A DNA stretch of 62,386 nucleotides, taken from IMG/VR virus record IMGVR_UViG_3300030451_003961, positions 1 through 62,386 of that record; one strand, 5' to 3'. Shown here one piece after another: positions 38,586 through 48,848 of this stretch (position 1 is its first letter; each line of letters begins with the position of its first letter). The notes beneath the pieces were generated by a model. The model had not been told where the DNA came from, did no database searches, and worked only from the letters and a program-made list of their open reading frames with translations. This DNA is from a virus. Both the position numbers and the translations under genes were made by a program.

Positions 38586-38720
38586 CTATCTTCCTTGTCC
38601 TCTGTATCTTTTGAGGTAGTTCTTACTTTGTTTACATTTACTGCTTTTAGTTTTAGCATGTATTCTTTTACGCTTTCTACTTTTGGTCTTGTAAACATTG
38701 ATATTTATTTTTCTAGCCAT
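38586..38720 (-). CDS. Arg/Lys-rich mini-protein (44 aa)
   Basis: Start overlaps the groEL stop by eight bases. Sequence has KSRKRKRIHAKTKSSKCKQS followed by a YRGQGR end; very basic proteins ending with this Y-x-G-Q-G-R pattern are common in Bacteroidetes phages. Likely nucleic-acid binding. Function unknown. Confidence 0.6.
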   Translation of the reverse strand: MARKININVYKTKSRKRKRIHAKTKSSKCKQSKNYLKRYRGQGR

Positions 38721-40338
38721 TCTTGTCTAAGCTTCTGGCCATGGTTACTATTGCATTTGTAGATAATATTGTTGTAGCAACTGATACTGCATTCTTCAAA
38801 GCATGCTTTGTAACTTTGAGTGGATCAATAATTCCTAGTTCATACATATCTCCATGCTTGTTATTCTTAACATCGTACCCATAGTTGTCCCAACTAAATT
38901 GTGGAGCACCTACAATAGGGCCTGCTTCAATTCCTGCATTGTCCAGGATTTGATATAAAGGGGCTTTCAATGCATTGATCATAATAGATAATGCTAACCA
39001 TGATTCATCTTTCTTGTCTGTTAGTGCGTGCTCAAAAGTATATTCATCATTTACTTGCCATAACGCAATCCCTCCTCCTGGCAATATTCCTTCTTCTAGT
39101 GCAGATCTAACAGCACACACCGAGTCATCGACTCGGTCGAATTTTTCTTTTTGCTCTATGTCTGAATCACCACCAACATAAATAACACCTACAGCTCCAC
39201 TAAGTCCTGCGATTCTTTCTAAAATGAAATCTTTGTCAGACTTTTTATTTGTATTGTCTGCAGCTTCTTGTAGTTCTTTTATTCTTTCTTGAATCAGATC
39301 TTCATTAGTGTGTTGAGGATTCTTAATTATAACAGTTTGTTCACGACCAACCACAATCTTTTCTGCATGTCCAAGATCTGCCATATTAATTAGTTCAAGA
39401 TTATCACCTGTCTTTTCGGAAAAGTATTTAGCACCAACTGACAAAGCAATATCCTGCATCAATTCGTTTTGTCTATACCCGAAGCTCGGTGGAGGTATAT
39501 TACAAAGCTTAAGATTATTCTTCACCACATTTGCAGCAAGAGTATTTATCACATTGGCTGTACATGAACCAATGATCAGTAATTTTTTATTAGCCTGGAT
39601 GATCGGTTTAAGAATATTTTCAATGGCAAGTATGCTTCCAATCTCTTGATCAGTAACCAAGATCAAAACATCTTCAAGGATACATTCGTCTTTCTTTTGA
39701 TTATTCACAAATAAGTTAGAAGCATACCCACGATTGATTTTTATACCCTGTGTGATTTCGGAATATGTAGCAGTAGTTTGAGATTTCTCAACTGCCACCA
39801 TTCCACCCTTACCAACCCTGTGATAAGCGTCTGCTATGATCTTTCCAAGTTCCTTATCATTATTGGCTGATATTGTAGCAACATCCACTAATGTCTTTTT
39901 AGTAAGTTTCTTGGCAGAATTTTTTAATCTTTCTACTATCTCATTGGTTATTCTTTGTATATGTCTTAGAACTTCTGTTTTGTTGTAAGATGGATCAATA
40001 TGTTCCATGCCTGACCTCACGATTGACTCAGCCAATACGATTGCAGTTGTAGTGCCATCACCTGCCTGTGTCGCAGTCTTGATTGCAGCCTCTTTCATCA
40101 TCTTAACTGCTAGATTTTCCACAGGATCTACTAAATCTATGCTTTTAGCTACTGTAACTCCATCCTTAGTGACTGTAATAGAGGAAGTTAGGTGTGGAGA
40201 TTCGATTAAAACTGTGTTTCCTAGAGGCCCAAGCGTACTTTTTACAGCTCTTGAGATAGTTTCTATGCCTTTTTGCAATTTTTCACGACCAGAATGGTCG
40301 AAATATATTTCTTTTGGTAGGTATCCTTGATTATTCAT
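38713..40338 (-). CDS. groEL: Chaperonin GroEL (541 aa)
   Basis: Full-length chaperonin. Seen: KSTLGPLGNTV near residues 34-44, VTKDGVTVA (Asp59), QAGDGTTTAIVLA (Asp94), equatorial/intermediate VATISANND, apical MQDIALSVGAK, RVDDSVCAVRSALEEG (Asp405) and PGGGIAL. These correspond to the ATPase and nucleotide residues Asp52, Asp87 and Asp398 of E. coli GroEL, so an active ATPase is expected. The Gly-Gly-Met C-terminal tail of bacterial GroEL is absent. Phage-encoded GroEL usually folds capsid or other virion proteins (family knowledge); it lies in one operon with groES. Confidence 0.95.
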   Translation of the reverse strand: MNNQGYLPKEIYFDHSGREKLQKGIETISRAVKSTLGPLGNTVLIESPHLTSSITVTKDGVTVAKSIDLVDPVENLAVKMMKEAAIKTATQAGDGTTTAIVLAESIVRSGMEHIDPSYNKTEVLRHIQRITNEIVERLKNSAKKLTKKTLVDVATISANNDKELGKIIADAYHRVGKGGMVAVEKSQTTATYSEITQGIKINRGYASNLFVNNQKKDECILEDVLILVTDQEIGSILAIENILKPIIQANKKLLIIGSCTANVINTLAANVVKNNLKLCNIPPPSFGYRQNELMQDIALSVGAKYFSEKTGDNLELINMADLGHAEKIVVGREQTVIIKNPQHTNEDLIQERIKELQEAADNTNKKSDKDFILERIAGLSGAVGVIYVGGDSDIEQKEKFDRVDDSVCAVRSALEEGILPGGGIALWQVNDEYTFEHALTDKKDESWLALSIMINALKAPLYQILDNAGIEAGPIVGAPQFSWDNYGYDVKNNKHGDMYELGIIDPLKVTKHALKNAVSVATTILSTNAIVTMARSLDKNG

Positions 40339-40685: not shown

Positions 40686-40859
40686 TTATTTTTTAAATAG
40701 GTTTATATTAGCGTTTGCTAATTCATTAGCCTCTGCAATCACCTGAACTTTGTCAAATCTTTTGATTGACTTCTTCATCATGCAGAGTTTTGTAATGCCC
40801 ATTACTGGATCTGGTCTATTATTGATCAGTCTTCCATTTTTAATTTCTAATCCATCCAT
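40686..40859 (-). CDS. Small protein (57 aa) in its own transcription unit
   Basis: A longer reading frame begins at 40889, but the TATCTTTG promoter box lies inside it (40879-40886), so the ATG at 40859 (MDGLEIKNGRLINNRPDPV) is the likelier start. Ends LANANINLFKK, followed by an intrinsic terminator, giving a complete monocistronic unit. No family recognised. Confidence 0.55.
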   Translation of the reverse strand: MDGLEIKNGRLINNRPDPVMGITKLCMMKKSIKRFDKVQVIAEANELANANINLFKK

Positions 40860-40878
40860 GATCTTAGTTTTAATCCTA

Positions 40879-40886
40879 CAAAGATA
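40879..40886 (-). promoter_or_regulatory. Candidate -7 promoter box (TATCTTTG)
   Basis: Minus-strand TATCTTTG 20 bases upstream of the 40859 ATG; identical to the boxes at 13691, 35764 and 36892. Confidence 0.5.
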
Positions 40887-40929
40887 CAAAATAATCAGTT
40901 ACCTATATTGTTTAGGTTATATATATACA

Positions 40930-41195: not shown

Positions 41196-41349
41196 TGAAT
41201 TTTTTTTTGTGTGATTTTCTTGAGTAAAAATTAAGAGCTCTGCAAGTTTTTTTTAATGCACTTTAAAAATTTTTTTGCAAAGTTTGTTTTTTTTTGTACC
41301 TTGTGAAAAATTTTCAGGGTTGTTCCCTGTTAATTATGCTCATTTACAT

Positions 41350-41784
41350 ATGAAGTCAATAACACACACTTCGAACAAGTCCAGTGCTAAACCTGTGAAT
41401 AATAGTAACAGAGTTGGCAAAGGCATAACCAAGTTATTAAACAGAAAAAAGTTATTAACTAAGAAAAAAGATAGAACACAAATGGATTCTATTTATCTGT
41501 TTAATGTTGCTTTTAAACTTGAAAATAAATCTCTTTCAAAAGTTTACAAAGATTTGAAAAATGCAACAGGCGAATTTTTGAAATATAGAGATGAAATACT
41601 TGGAAAATCAAAGTTCCCAAGTTTCAATGATTTTAAAGCAAAAGCGAGTAAAAAAAGAGGTCAATATCAACACTCAATTTATTCGGGGTTAATGATGCTA
41701 AAGCAATTCAATAAAATTGAAAAAACTTTGGCAAGAGTAAAGAGGCAAAATGCCAACGCAAAAAGAGTTAAATCGGTTGCGTAA
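41350..41784 (+). CDS. Small basic protein upstream of structured RNA (144 aa)
   Basis: The start at 41350 (MKSITHTSNKSS) is preferred over a longer T-rich extension beginning at 41275. The protein is Lys/Asn/Ser-rich, mostly helical (KKKDRTQMDSIYLFNVAFKL, SIYSGLMMLKQFNKIEKTLA) and ends with KRQNANAKRVKSVA. Its stop precedes the first tRNA-like element by nine bases. A nucleic-acid-binding partner of the adjacent RNA is conceivable but only inferred from charge and position. Confidence 0.5.
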   Translation: MKSITHTSNKSSAKPVNNSNRVGKGITKLLNRKKLLTKKKDRTQMDSIYLFNVAFKLENKSLSKVYKDLKNATGEFLKYRDEILGKSKFPSFNDFKAKASKKRGQYQHSIYSGLMMLKQFNKIEKTLARVKRQNANAKRVKSVA

Positions 41785-41793
41785 TTACTCAAA

Positions 41794-41836
41794 TGAATGT
41801 TTGGAATTTAGGGGGGTTCGAGTCCCCCCCATTCAT
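41794..41836 (+). ncRNA. tRNA-like element 1 (acceptor helix plus T-arm only)
   Basis: A T-stem of 5 bp (GGGGG 41812-41816 with CCCCC 41824-41828) encloses the loop TTCGAGT, which fits TTCRANY. The next seven bases CCATTCA (41829-41835) pair with TGAATG (41794-41799) as an acceptor-like helix. Only 11-12 bases link the 5' acceptor strand to the T-arm, so there is no room for D or anticodon arms. Followed by T-CTAACT. Confidence 0.6.
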
Positions 41837-42589
41837 CTAACTTCTGCAAATTTCAGGGAATGCAGTTTGAATATGATTTGAAACCTGATAAGCAGTACTG
41901 ACAGATGCGAAATGCACACAGGCGAAATGCCTATATCTGTACAGGAAGCCAAACAGAAGGGATTTTTAGGATTTTCGGGGCACGAGCCCTTGAGGATACA
42001 GAGAGCAATCTGTATAAGTCGGTAGTGATGTACGAAGATACATTAGTAAAACAACGCATCAGATAACCCAAAGTATGTCTATCCTATGTCTGAACAAGAC
42101 CGACAGCCGAGTGCTGAACAGGTAAGGTCTGCCCCTTCTCTATCGGGGGTAATAGGTAGAGGAACTATCGAGCCAAAAGCGAGATAAGACAGGTAGCGAA
42201 CTTATGTAAAATCTTGACGCACTTTGTAAAGTTGAATCATCAAACATACATATCGGTATGTACAAAGGGTAAACAGAGTACGGGCGACTTGTTCCCCTTT
42301 GTGTTTAAAAACTTGTGACATCAGGCAACCAACCTGATGAATATTGAGATTTCCCATCACCATGATGGGTTGTAAGGATAAGAAACTCGGTGGATTAGAG
42401 ATTTGTTTAGTTAGAGGTAAACTCGTAGACAATCGATCGAAACAGGTCGAGGCAAAACCAATTCACAAAATCAGTAATAATGTCGGGTTTGAAGTACACC
42501 TTAAGTGAGAGTCATGTGATACAGATGATGTAGCGATTTCGGAATGAAATGAGACTCAAAGGCATTACGGAAAAAACTTCAACACTACA

Positions 42590-42622
42590 GGTGGTGAGAG
42601 GGTTCGATTCCCTCCTCCACCC
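42590..42622 (+). ncRNA. tRNA-like element 2 (acceptor helix plus T-arm only)
   Basis: T-stem GAGGG (42598-42602) pairs with CCCTC (42610-42614) around TTCGATT. The following CTCCACC (42615-42621) pairs with GGTGGTG (42590-42596) except for one T-T mismatch, with a single unpaired A before the T-arm. Followed by C-CTAACT, the same CTAACT as after element 1. The D and anticodon arms are absent; a GGTGGA copy at 42389-42394 is an alternative, distant 5' partner. Confidence 0.6.
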
Positions 42623-42643: not shown

Positions 42644-42853
42644 ATGCGAAAGCGAATACTTAAAAAAGTCAATCTAACAAGGGAGGTTGAGAAAATTGAC
42701 AACAACCACACACGAAAAAGAGTAGTGTATGGAAAACTTGTTCATCACATGATGAAGGAGTATGGACTTGATTGGGAGTCAGCAAAGAAAAAGTTGAAAG
42801 CCCAACAAGTAGAAACATCAATCAAAAGAGAGTTTAATTTAATAAATCAATAA
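42644..42853 (+). CDS. Small basic protein, first gene of the early operon (69 aa)
   Basis: Lys/Arg-rich (MRKRILKKVNLTREVEKI, HTRKRVVYGKLVHHMMKEYG), helical. Begins 22 bases after the structured RNA. No family recognised. Confidence 0.5.
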   Translation: MRKRILKKVNLTREVEKIDNNHTRKRVVYGKLVHHMMKEYGLDWESAKKKLKAQQVETSIKREFNLINQ

Positions 42854-46059: not shown

Positions 46060-46290
46060 ATGGGAAAACATGCACCTGAATACCTTGAAGACAAGGTACT
46101 CACACTAATTAAACTAATGGAAGCAAATGTTTCAAACAGCTGGACATTTGATTTAGAAATGACTCATGAATGTATCATTGTAGAGGATGGAGTAAACAGA
46201 CATGAGGATGATCAGTATACAGAAGTCTATACAGGGGCTAGGATTTGGGAGTTAGTTGAAGAGATTAAAAAAGAAATATATGGAAAATGA
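46060..46290 (+). CDS. Small acidic early protein (76 aa)
   Basis: MGKHAPEYLEDKVLTLIKLM followed by acidic stretch (ECIIVEDGVNRHEDDQYTEV) and a Glu/Lys C-terminus. Unknown; overlaps the next start. Confidence 0.5.
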   Translation: MGKHAPEYLEDKVLTLIKLMEANVSNSWTFDLEMTHECIIVEDGVNRHEDDQYTEVYTGARIWELVEEIKKEIYGK

Positions 46291-46639
46291 TTATTCAAAA
46301 TACATAGGCATGTATATGTCTACCTATAGTTTTGTAGGGCAGAACAAACTAGAGGATGTCGCAAACGAAGTCTTGGGATTAGGATGGGAGGCAGAGGATG
46401 ATGTAGTACAGATAGAGGCTATACTAGAGGCTCTATGTCCTAACATGTTTGTGGTAGAATTCATTGCTAACAGCAAGTTTGAGGATGATATTCGTGTTAG
46501 GATAAGGGATGAATATCAAGTCAGACATGAATTGAAAGAATTGGTAGACTTATTTAATTGGAGAAAGACTTCTACCAATGACAGTATACTGATGGTAGGA
46601 GATTTAAAAAAGTTGACTGAATTAGTAGATAAATTATAA
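46280..46639 (+). CDS. Hypothetical early protein (119 aa)
   Basis: The start at 46280 (MENDYSKYIGMYMSTYSFVG) overlaps the preceding stop (ATGGAAAATGA); an earlier in-frame Met lies within the upstream gene. Acidic and helical; C-terminus SNDSILMVGDLKKLTELVDK. Its stop codon lies in the first bases of the pseudoknot-like leader of the next gene. Confidence 0.5.
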   Translation: MENDYSKYIGMYMSTYSFVGQNKLEDVANEVLGLGWEAEDDVVQIEAILEALCPNMFVVEFIANSKFEDDIRVRIRDEYQVRHELKELVDLFNWRKTSTNDSILMVGDLKKLTELVDKL

Positions 46640-46668
46640 GGGGTAGCCGAAAACCTTACAGAGTAGGC
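46637..46668 (+). promoter_or_regulatory. Pseudoknot-like 5' leader, copy 1
   Basis: TAAGG (46637-46641) pairs with CCTTA (46654-46658), and GCC in the loop (46646-46648) can pair with GGC downstream (46666-46668), an H-type pseudoknot. The motif TAGCCGAAA...GAGTAGGCA and the following AATTTAATTTAATATT recur before the gene at 48849. It ends 24 bases before the ATG at 46693, so it may regulate translation. Confidence 0.5.
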
Positions 46669-46692
46669 AAAATTTAATTTAATATTTTAATT

Positions 46693-48553: not shown

Positions 48554-48827
48554 ACAAAAGCAATTTCAAGAATTAAATCTACAAAAGACATATGTCTTTG
48601 ATTACCTCGGAACTAGCGATGGTTACGAAGTGGGTTGGCTACATGAGGAAAGTCAACGAGAAATAGAAGATCCTGATAGTGAATTATTTTACGACAAGTA
48701 TGGGATGATGAGTGTAGCAGAGGAGATAGTGAAAGAAGGATATCATAATTACATAAACTATTGGTTGGATGACGAGGATATCGAAGCCTGGGAAGAAGAA
48801 AGGGATAGCCGAAACCCTGAAGAGTAG
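48546..48827 (+). CDS. Acidic early protein (93 aa)
   Basis: The start at 48546 (MNKQKQFQELNLQKTYVFDY) is preferred; a longer frame from 48453 would overlap the preceding gene entirely. Acidic, Tyr/Trp-rich (YGMMSVAEEIVKEGYHNYIN). Its last codons run through the second pseudoknot-like leader, so translation of its end may affect that structure. Confidence 0.55.
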   Translation: MNKQKQFQELNLQKTYVFDYLGTSDGYEVGWLHEESQREIEDPDSELFYDKYGMMSVAEEIVKEGYHNYINYWLDDEDIEAWEEERDSRNPEE

Positions 48828-48829
48828 GC
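48801..48829 (+). promoter_or_regulatory. Pseudoknot-like 5' leader, copy 2
   Basis: AGGG (48801-48804) pairs with CCCT (48815-48818); GCC (48808-48810) can pair with GGC (48827-48829). Compared with copy 1 the first helix keeps pairing although both strands changed (TAAGG/CCTTA versus AGGG/CCCT), a compensatory change. A shared AT-rich spacer leads to the ATG at 48849. Unusually, the motif is also coding for the end of the upstream gene. Confidence 0.5.
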
Positions 48830-48848
48830 ACAATTTAAATTTAATATT

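Follow-up and report, generated by a model that had tools for sequence, protein, structure and literature searches.

The DNA analysed here, hereafter the window, comes from IMG/VR, where it forms a viral record of 62,386 bases; its late structural genes lie on the minus strand and run leftward. Positions 41793-42622 of the window raise the question of whether a stretch with no apparent gene holds a structured RNA and, if so, to which class that RNA belongs and how it is made. The original prediction answered with a large structured phage RNA that carries T-arms at both ends, belongs or is related to the GOLLD/ROOL class, and sits between the early operon and the late/chaperonin block. The RNA and all of its parts are described below on the plus strand.

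Genome setting

The window encodes a GroEL homologue at 38713-40338 (Pfam Cpn60 match), and rightward early genes lie beyond it. The primase shares 63.6% identity with its counterpart in the podovirus MW202828. These sequences point to a groEL-bearing podophage whose host is probably a member of the Bacteroidetes, the host being deduced from the host annotations of the more distant hits in the primase search. The first gene of the early unit (41350-41784, plus strand) encodes a lysine-rich product of 144 aa that belongs to no known family and had no match in PHROG or Pfam. A TACCUUG box at 41297, which resembles the Bacteroidetes -7 element, suggests that the early unit probably begins upstream of gene 41350, with transcription probably starting just 5' of that gene. 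The next early gene (42644-42853, plus strand, 69 aa) starts 22 nt past the downstream tRNA-like element described below. The RNA is located inside the early unit, between its first two genes, and not between the early operon and the late/chaperonin block as first placed.

Other features were recorded in and around this setting. A small protein encoded at 40686-40889 (minus strand), with no Pfam match, has homologues directly upstream of groEL in most groEL phage loci. A DUF805b RNA match at 46637-46669 (plus strand, 43.6 bits, above the cut-off) lies at the end of gene 46256-46639, and a second is present at 48799-48830 (plus strand, 26.6 bits, below the cut-off). In MW202828 (locus L084, 10480-12200), the perfect palindrome GTGTCGTTAACGACAC is repeated before many small early genes.

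Structure predicted from the window sequence

Open reading frames within 41837-42589 reach at most 76 aa, and no convincing frame is common to the window and its two homologues (L086 and L146, below), whose own best-matching frames are interrupted by stops; the stretch has no credible gene, as had been stated. Its higher G/C content was likewise confirmed (G+C of 0.39-0.44 compared to 0.27-0.35 on either side). The many perfect hairpins reported were found again, with 12 non-overlapping hairpins of at least 5 bp against 6.05 ± 2.1 in dinucleotide shuffles (P ~0.01), and 5 hairpins of 6-7 bp against 1.6 in the shuffles. Four of the six hairpin intervals named individually contain perfect hairpins (41996-42015, 42244-42261, 42319-42339 and 42353-42369), while 42262-42302 pairs with interruptions in the minimum-energy fold. 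The claim of dense structure holds against the shuffles but not within the window, where 7 of 75 tiles of 830 nt match the count of hairpins with at least 5 bp and 8 of 75 match the count with at least 6 bp. Folding energy was modestly low for the whole stretch (z -2.6) and for the body of the RNA (z -2.05), and the adjoining gene 41350-41784 gave z -4.9. Hairpin count and folding energy were rejected as proof of a structured RNA, since other tiles or the neighboring gene do equally well or better, and one sequence therefore leaves RNA structure unproven. At the level of sequence comparison, the question is settled by homologues and not by single-sequence statistics.

Homologues and covariation

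Two other phage contigs carry a homologue of the RNA after a homologue of the upstream gene. In L086 (contig 3300030380_004215), homologues of both flanking genes are present with the RNA between them (nhmmer E of 3e-8, with few loci searched). In L146 (3300003264_000007), the upstream gene is followed by the 5' part of the RNA, which was detected at an E of 2.2e-26 with a profile of the window plus L086. The products of the upstream genes, which lie directly 5' of the RNA, are ~52-55% identical to that of 41350-41784. Homologues of the downstream gene, 42644-42853, follow a tRNA-like element in L086 (41%) and in L074/L087 (38%). L074 retains the downstream gene and shares the 3' tRNA-like element of L086, and its middle is either different or diverged past recognition. 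The same slot in L074 (8208-8808, minus strand; L087, 3380-3990) is occupied by ~600 nt of non-coding sequence with another middle, in which AAAGUGGUUAAUCCCU occurs twice.

Contig 3300030116_005646 is identical to the window over the region and adds no information. DNA-pattern scans of viral contigs returned this twin, L086 and, with the last pattern, L146, plus unrelated matches. A nucleotide search of annotated phages gave no match to the RNA, a covariance model of the RNA (R1) found no further copy in 41 whole phage records, and no recognisable copy is present in MW202828 (63% identical primase). Bacterial genomes were scanned with GAAGCCAAACNGANGGGA; among the matches listed, the contexts were different and none looked like the window RNA by eye, and the 16 bacterial GAAGCCAAACNGANGGGA loci that were checked had no Rfam match.

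The R1 model was built from L086 and L146 only, with the window left out, and it found window positions 41840-42016 with 46.5 bits (E of 2.7e-9). In the three-sequence alignment, which was fitted to R1 so that the counts lean towards the model, standard pairs fill 97.1% of base-pair cells, and 17 of the 35 pairs carry changes on both sides; the cells count sequences, three in all, and not independent events. None of 500 shuffles reached the observed pairing and covariation, a slide of one column cut pairing to 42-46%, and slides of 1-3 columns destroyed the signal. A hand count by helix, in registers chosen manually and so favoring structure, left no broken pair in the cells it covered and recorded changes on both sides in 18 pairs. 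The main helices also recur in separate minimum-energy folds of all three sequences. The original prediction of a large structured phage RNA had staked itself on covariation between homologues, and such covariation was found. These results indicate that 41793-42622 almost certainly holds a real, conserved structured RNA, with the covariation coming from the 5' domain only.

The body of the large RNA would span 41837-42589 (753 nt), its ends being placed by the tRNA-like elements on either side and its homologues being those of L086 and L146. The conserved 5' domain (41840-42016), defined by R1 and covariation, consists of an outer stem, a three-way junction with GAAAU-loop hairpins, the conserved GAAGCCAAAC, and two further hairpins. 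The outer stem follows the pattern CUUCnG/CnGAAG. In the window its 5' strand, H1 (CUUCUG, 41841-41846), pairs with CAGAAG at 41954-41959, and the equivalents are CUUCGG/CCGAGG in L086 and CUUCGG/CCGAAG in L146. An inner stem leads to two G(A/C)AAU-loop hairpins, and AAGnAGUA is kept along with GAAGCCAAAC. The 5' strand of H3 (41898-41906) pairs with 41935-41944, and 8 of its 9 pairs are changed on both sides. The GAAAU-loop hairpin AGGC-GAAAU-GCCU (41920-41932) is supported by both the alignment and the helix count. The most conserved stretch, GAAGCCAAACAGAAGGGA (41945-41962), is nearly identical in L086 and L146. The last of the two further hairpins has an AGAG loop; the hairpin AUACAG-AGAGCAAU-CUGUAU (41996-42015) has a stem that covaries, and the loops of its homologues are AGAGAUA and AGAGAUG.

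Conservation in the 3' half consists of short shared blocks and one hairpin, the MAFFT alignment of this half being of too low quality to use. The block AACUUAUGUAAAAUCUUG (42199-42216) is common with L086, where it reads AACUUAUAUAAAAUUUUG. A hairpin, CCCAUCA/UGAUGGG, followed by the conserved UUGUAAGGAUAAG (42353-42382), is also found in L086 with a different stem. The 3' extension (42400-42589, 190 nt) lies past the end of the nhmmer alignment, has no recognised counterpart in L086 or L146, and has no folding signal of its own (z +0.15).

Comparison with known RNA families

The proposed membership in, or relation to, GOLLD or ROOL was not borne out, as neither model matched the window, L086 or L146 down to E=10, and GOLLD was also absent from the window at the Rfam gathering threshold. 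The same three loci gave no match, to E=10, to full-length tmRNA, group I or II introns, or RNase P. With Rfam 15, the body scored at chance level only in all three homologues, with no riboswitch family match; low matches such as rli48 and S774 were far under their cut-offs and were taken as chance. A tmRNA was discarded as a candidate, since ARAGORN found none and only the 3' T-arm/acceptor end matches the tmRNA model.

GOLLD is an ornate phage RNA of >800 nt found near tRNAs, with unknown function, a conserved 3' region and a variable 5' region, and ROOL is a ~660-nt phage and prophage RNA that is often near tRNA islands and is nonessential in one host (PMC12286853). What the window RNA has in common with them goes no further than size class, phage origin and an association with tRNA (PMC12286853). 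These likenesses, along with a modular build of one conserved and one variable half, would fit a GOLLD or ROOL that has drifted beyond the Rfam models and forms an RNA cage as they do. Against such drift, neither model matched any of the three homologues at E<=10, and two of these are well diverged from the window sequence. The position of the conserved part also argues against it, being the 3' region in GOLLD (PMC12286853) and the 5' domain (41840-42016) in the window RNA, where it is the 3' end that varies. In addition, GOLLD lies near real tRNAs, whereas the window RNA is flanked by tRNA-like minihelices, and the window RNA differs from ROOL in sitting inside an early operon. We regard descent from GOLLD or ROOL as very unlikely. 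The window RNA is likely a separate family of large phage RNA with an unusual likely route of maturation; to our knowledge, this family has had no earlier report.

tRNA-like elements in early operons

The T-arms predicted at both ends are present, and each forms part of a whole acceptor/T-arm minihelix (tRNA-like element, TLS) that has no anticodon arm. TLS1 (41793-41836) has an acceptor of 6-7 bp, an 11-nt linker that contains UGG, a T-stem and the T-loop UUCGAGU, followed by CUAAC, and it scored 60.4 bits with the R2 model, which includes the TLS1 sequence and not that of TLS2. TLS2 (42590-42621) has the acceptor GGUGGUG/CUCCACC (6 of 7 pairs), a 1-nt linker and the T-arm GAGGG-UUCGAUU-CCCUC, followed by C-CUAAC (R2, 23.3 bits, E of 1.9e-4). 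TLS2 is irregular in its U-U mismatch and 1-nt linker, and it weakly matches the 3' ends of the tmRNA and mascRNA models (mascRNA E of 0.34). The two elements are the only R2 matches within the window at E<=10. Real tRNAs at the RNA ends were ruled out, since ARAGORN found no tRNA in the window and both elements are without D and anticodon arms. Each end closes on itself, so the stretch as a whole was also rejected as one split tRNA or tmRNA.

Similar elements recur in related phages. A strict TLS scan of 0.83 Mb (the window and related loci) found 12 elements, where ten shuffles gave 0-3 each; one element (L073) is a poor case on the other strand. The strong elements occupy intergenic gaps on the early strand, most of them ~20-57 nt 5' of the next start codon in the cases where such a codon could be placed. 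In a TLS alignment of six phages (A5), 94.4% of positions expected to pair do so, 10 of 12 pairs carry changes on both sides, and pairing falls to about half when the columns are slid. The linker keeps UGG, as the D-loop does, and the T-loop reads UUCRANU. RNase P contacts RCCA in the region of tRNA positions 74-76. In 9 of 13 TLS, a count over phages that include some close relatives (L031/L038, L061/L066 and L074/L086), bases 74-76 are C-U-A in place of the C-C-A of tRNA, compared to 1.5% in the background. The 3' TLS of L086 scores as a tRNA (31.5 bits against the Rfam cut-off of 29). There is little doubt that intercistronic tRNA-like elements are real and recur in the early regions of related groEL-bearing phages, and we read them as putative remnants of tRNA genes, pared down to the features that RNase P and RNase Z recognise. 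Searches of the open-licence literature found no description of such elements in phage operons.

Two further loci carry tRNA-like sequences. L069 has a 116-nt tRNA match in which the anticodon region is apparently replaced by a longer stretch. In MW202828 (locus L305, ~525-700), two unannotated, degenerate tRNA-like elements lie in tandem at the 3' end of the early unit and are followed by a terminator-like hairpin.

The tRNA-derived ends, the large structured RNA between them, and the variable content at the same site in L074 could also mean that a mobile intron or another ribozyme once inserted at a tRNA gene and left a remnant. Such an origin is barely credible: group I/II signatures are lacking, no endonuclease or reverse transcriptase gene lies inside, each TLS is complete alone and not half of a split tRNA, and the strong covariation reflects selection on structure.

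Self-cleaving ribozymes were found in the early regions of related phages. Six pistol ribozymes (58-62 bits) are spaced through the early region of two groEL phages, three in each, all on the minus strand (L061: 1170-1241, 2324-2393 and 3154-3223; L066: 1510-1581, 2507-2575 and 3165-3234). Type III hammerhead matches, also on the minus strand, lie just 5' of a gene in L082 (1000-1054, 42.6 bits, E of 6e-6) and L076 (997-1051, 39.4 bits, E of 5e-5), with scores under the Rfam cut-off of 48.5. Neither ribozyme was found in the window. The ribozymes resemble the TLS in their early-region location and differ from them in being self-cleaving catalysts, and their presence favors transcript cutting as a common theme. 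Hammerhead-like sequences were also noted by eye in L069 and L070.

The TLS might instead serve as decoys or regulators, such as bait for host defences that target tRNA or anchors for tRNA-binding proteins, with the large RNA as their carrier. The elements lack the anticodon arm and the CCA end, yet they keep the elbow elements (the UGG linker and the UUCRANU T-loop), as a decoy could. However, their consistent position close 5' of start codons and the self-cleaving ribozymes in the same early regions both point to transcript cutting, and loss of the anticodon arm removes the target of an anticodon nuclease. A decoy role is improbable, and cutting of the TLS by tRNA enzymes is, on the features above, reasonably probable.

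Proposed maturation and role of the RNA

RNase P cleaves model hairpins made of an acceptor stem, T-stem and T-loop at the canonical site (PMC11143913). These minimal substrates and the tRNA-like domain of tmRNA resemble the TLS in having an acceptor and T-arm with no anticodon arm, and the TLS differ from the tmRNA domain in carrying CUA in place of CCA. NEAT1 and MALAT1 are matured by RNase P and RNase Z at a tRNA-like structure and are stated to be alone among lncRNAs in relying on tRNA-processing enzymes for maturation (PMC12941219). By analogy, MALAT1/NEAT1 (mascRNA/menRNA) are the closest counterparts for maturation, as they too are large noncoding RNAs with an end set by a tRNA-like element, although the cutting in the phage is predicted here from sequence. 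They differ in being eukaryotic nuclear RNAs with the element at the 3' end only, and no homology is implied.

In the route that we propose, the large RNA would be co-transcribed with the early operon. Host RNase P would cut 5' of each TLS acceptor stem and host RNase Z 3' of each discriminator base, so that cutting by RNase Z after TLS1 and by RNase P before TLS2 would free the 753-nt multi-domain RNA (41837-42589) and also leave the upstream and downstream mRNAs with clean ends. The predicted new 5' end lies 4 nt from the start of the first conserved helix, a close fit that is suggestive only. Once freed, the RNA may serve in trans as a folded scaffold or sink during early infection. Action in trans by a released RNA is somewhat favored, and a trans-acting scaffold is our preferred guess for its role because of the size of the RNA, its several domains and its early position. 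For the account as a whole, in which transcription, cleavage, stability and action in trans are all deduced, the balance tips only just in favor.

A different reading is that the RNA stays in the mRNA as a cis-acting leader, a long structured UTR that controls the downstream early operon by attenuation, antitermination or translation control. The RNA opens the early operon and was found only beside the same genes, and in L031 and L038 a TLS stands alone between genes with no large RNA, all of which would suit a leader. Conversely, a multi-domain structure of 750 nt is large for an attenuator, no riboswitch family matched, and a TLS at both ends would sever the RNA from the mRNA if the elements work as tRNA mimics. 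A leader is rather unlikely on this evidence.

The proposed release draws on a double TLS bracket that, among the window, L086 and L146, is present in the window only. The 5' bracket of L086 and L146 is a long plain CCCCC...GGGGG hairpin, and the 3' bracket of L146 is a hairpin without a T-loop that is nonetheless followed by CUAAU. The double bracket is therefore not a defining feature of the RNA. We tentatively suggest, at somewhat less than even confidence, that these phages use tRNA mimics and self-cleaving ribozymes as punctuation of their early operons, that a pair of such marks can set free a large trans-acting RNA, not described before, whose two ends are matured by host tRNA enzymes, and that the slot can hold different RNAs, as in L074.

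Giant structured phage RNAs fall into few described classes, and GOLLD and ROOL have yet to be given a function. The family found in the window brings with it an explicit and testable clue to its own biogenesis. If the TLS are cutting signals, they would provide a compact, host-powered means of dividing a polycistronic phage transcript, and the way in which tRNA mimics recur together with pistol and hammerhead ribozymes would point to a broad reliance on RNA cutting in these early operons.
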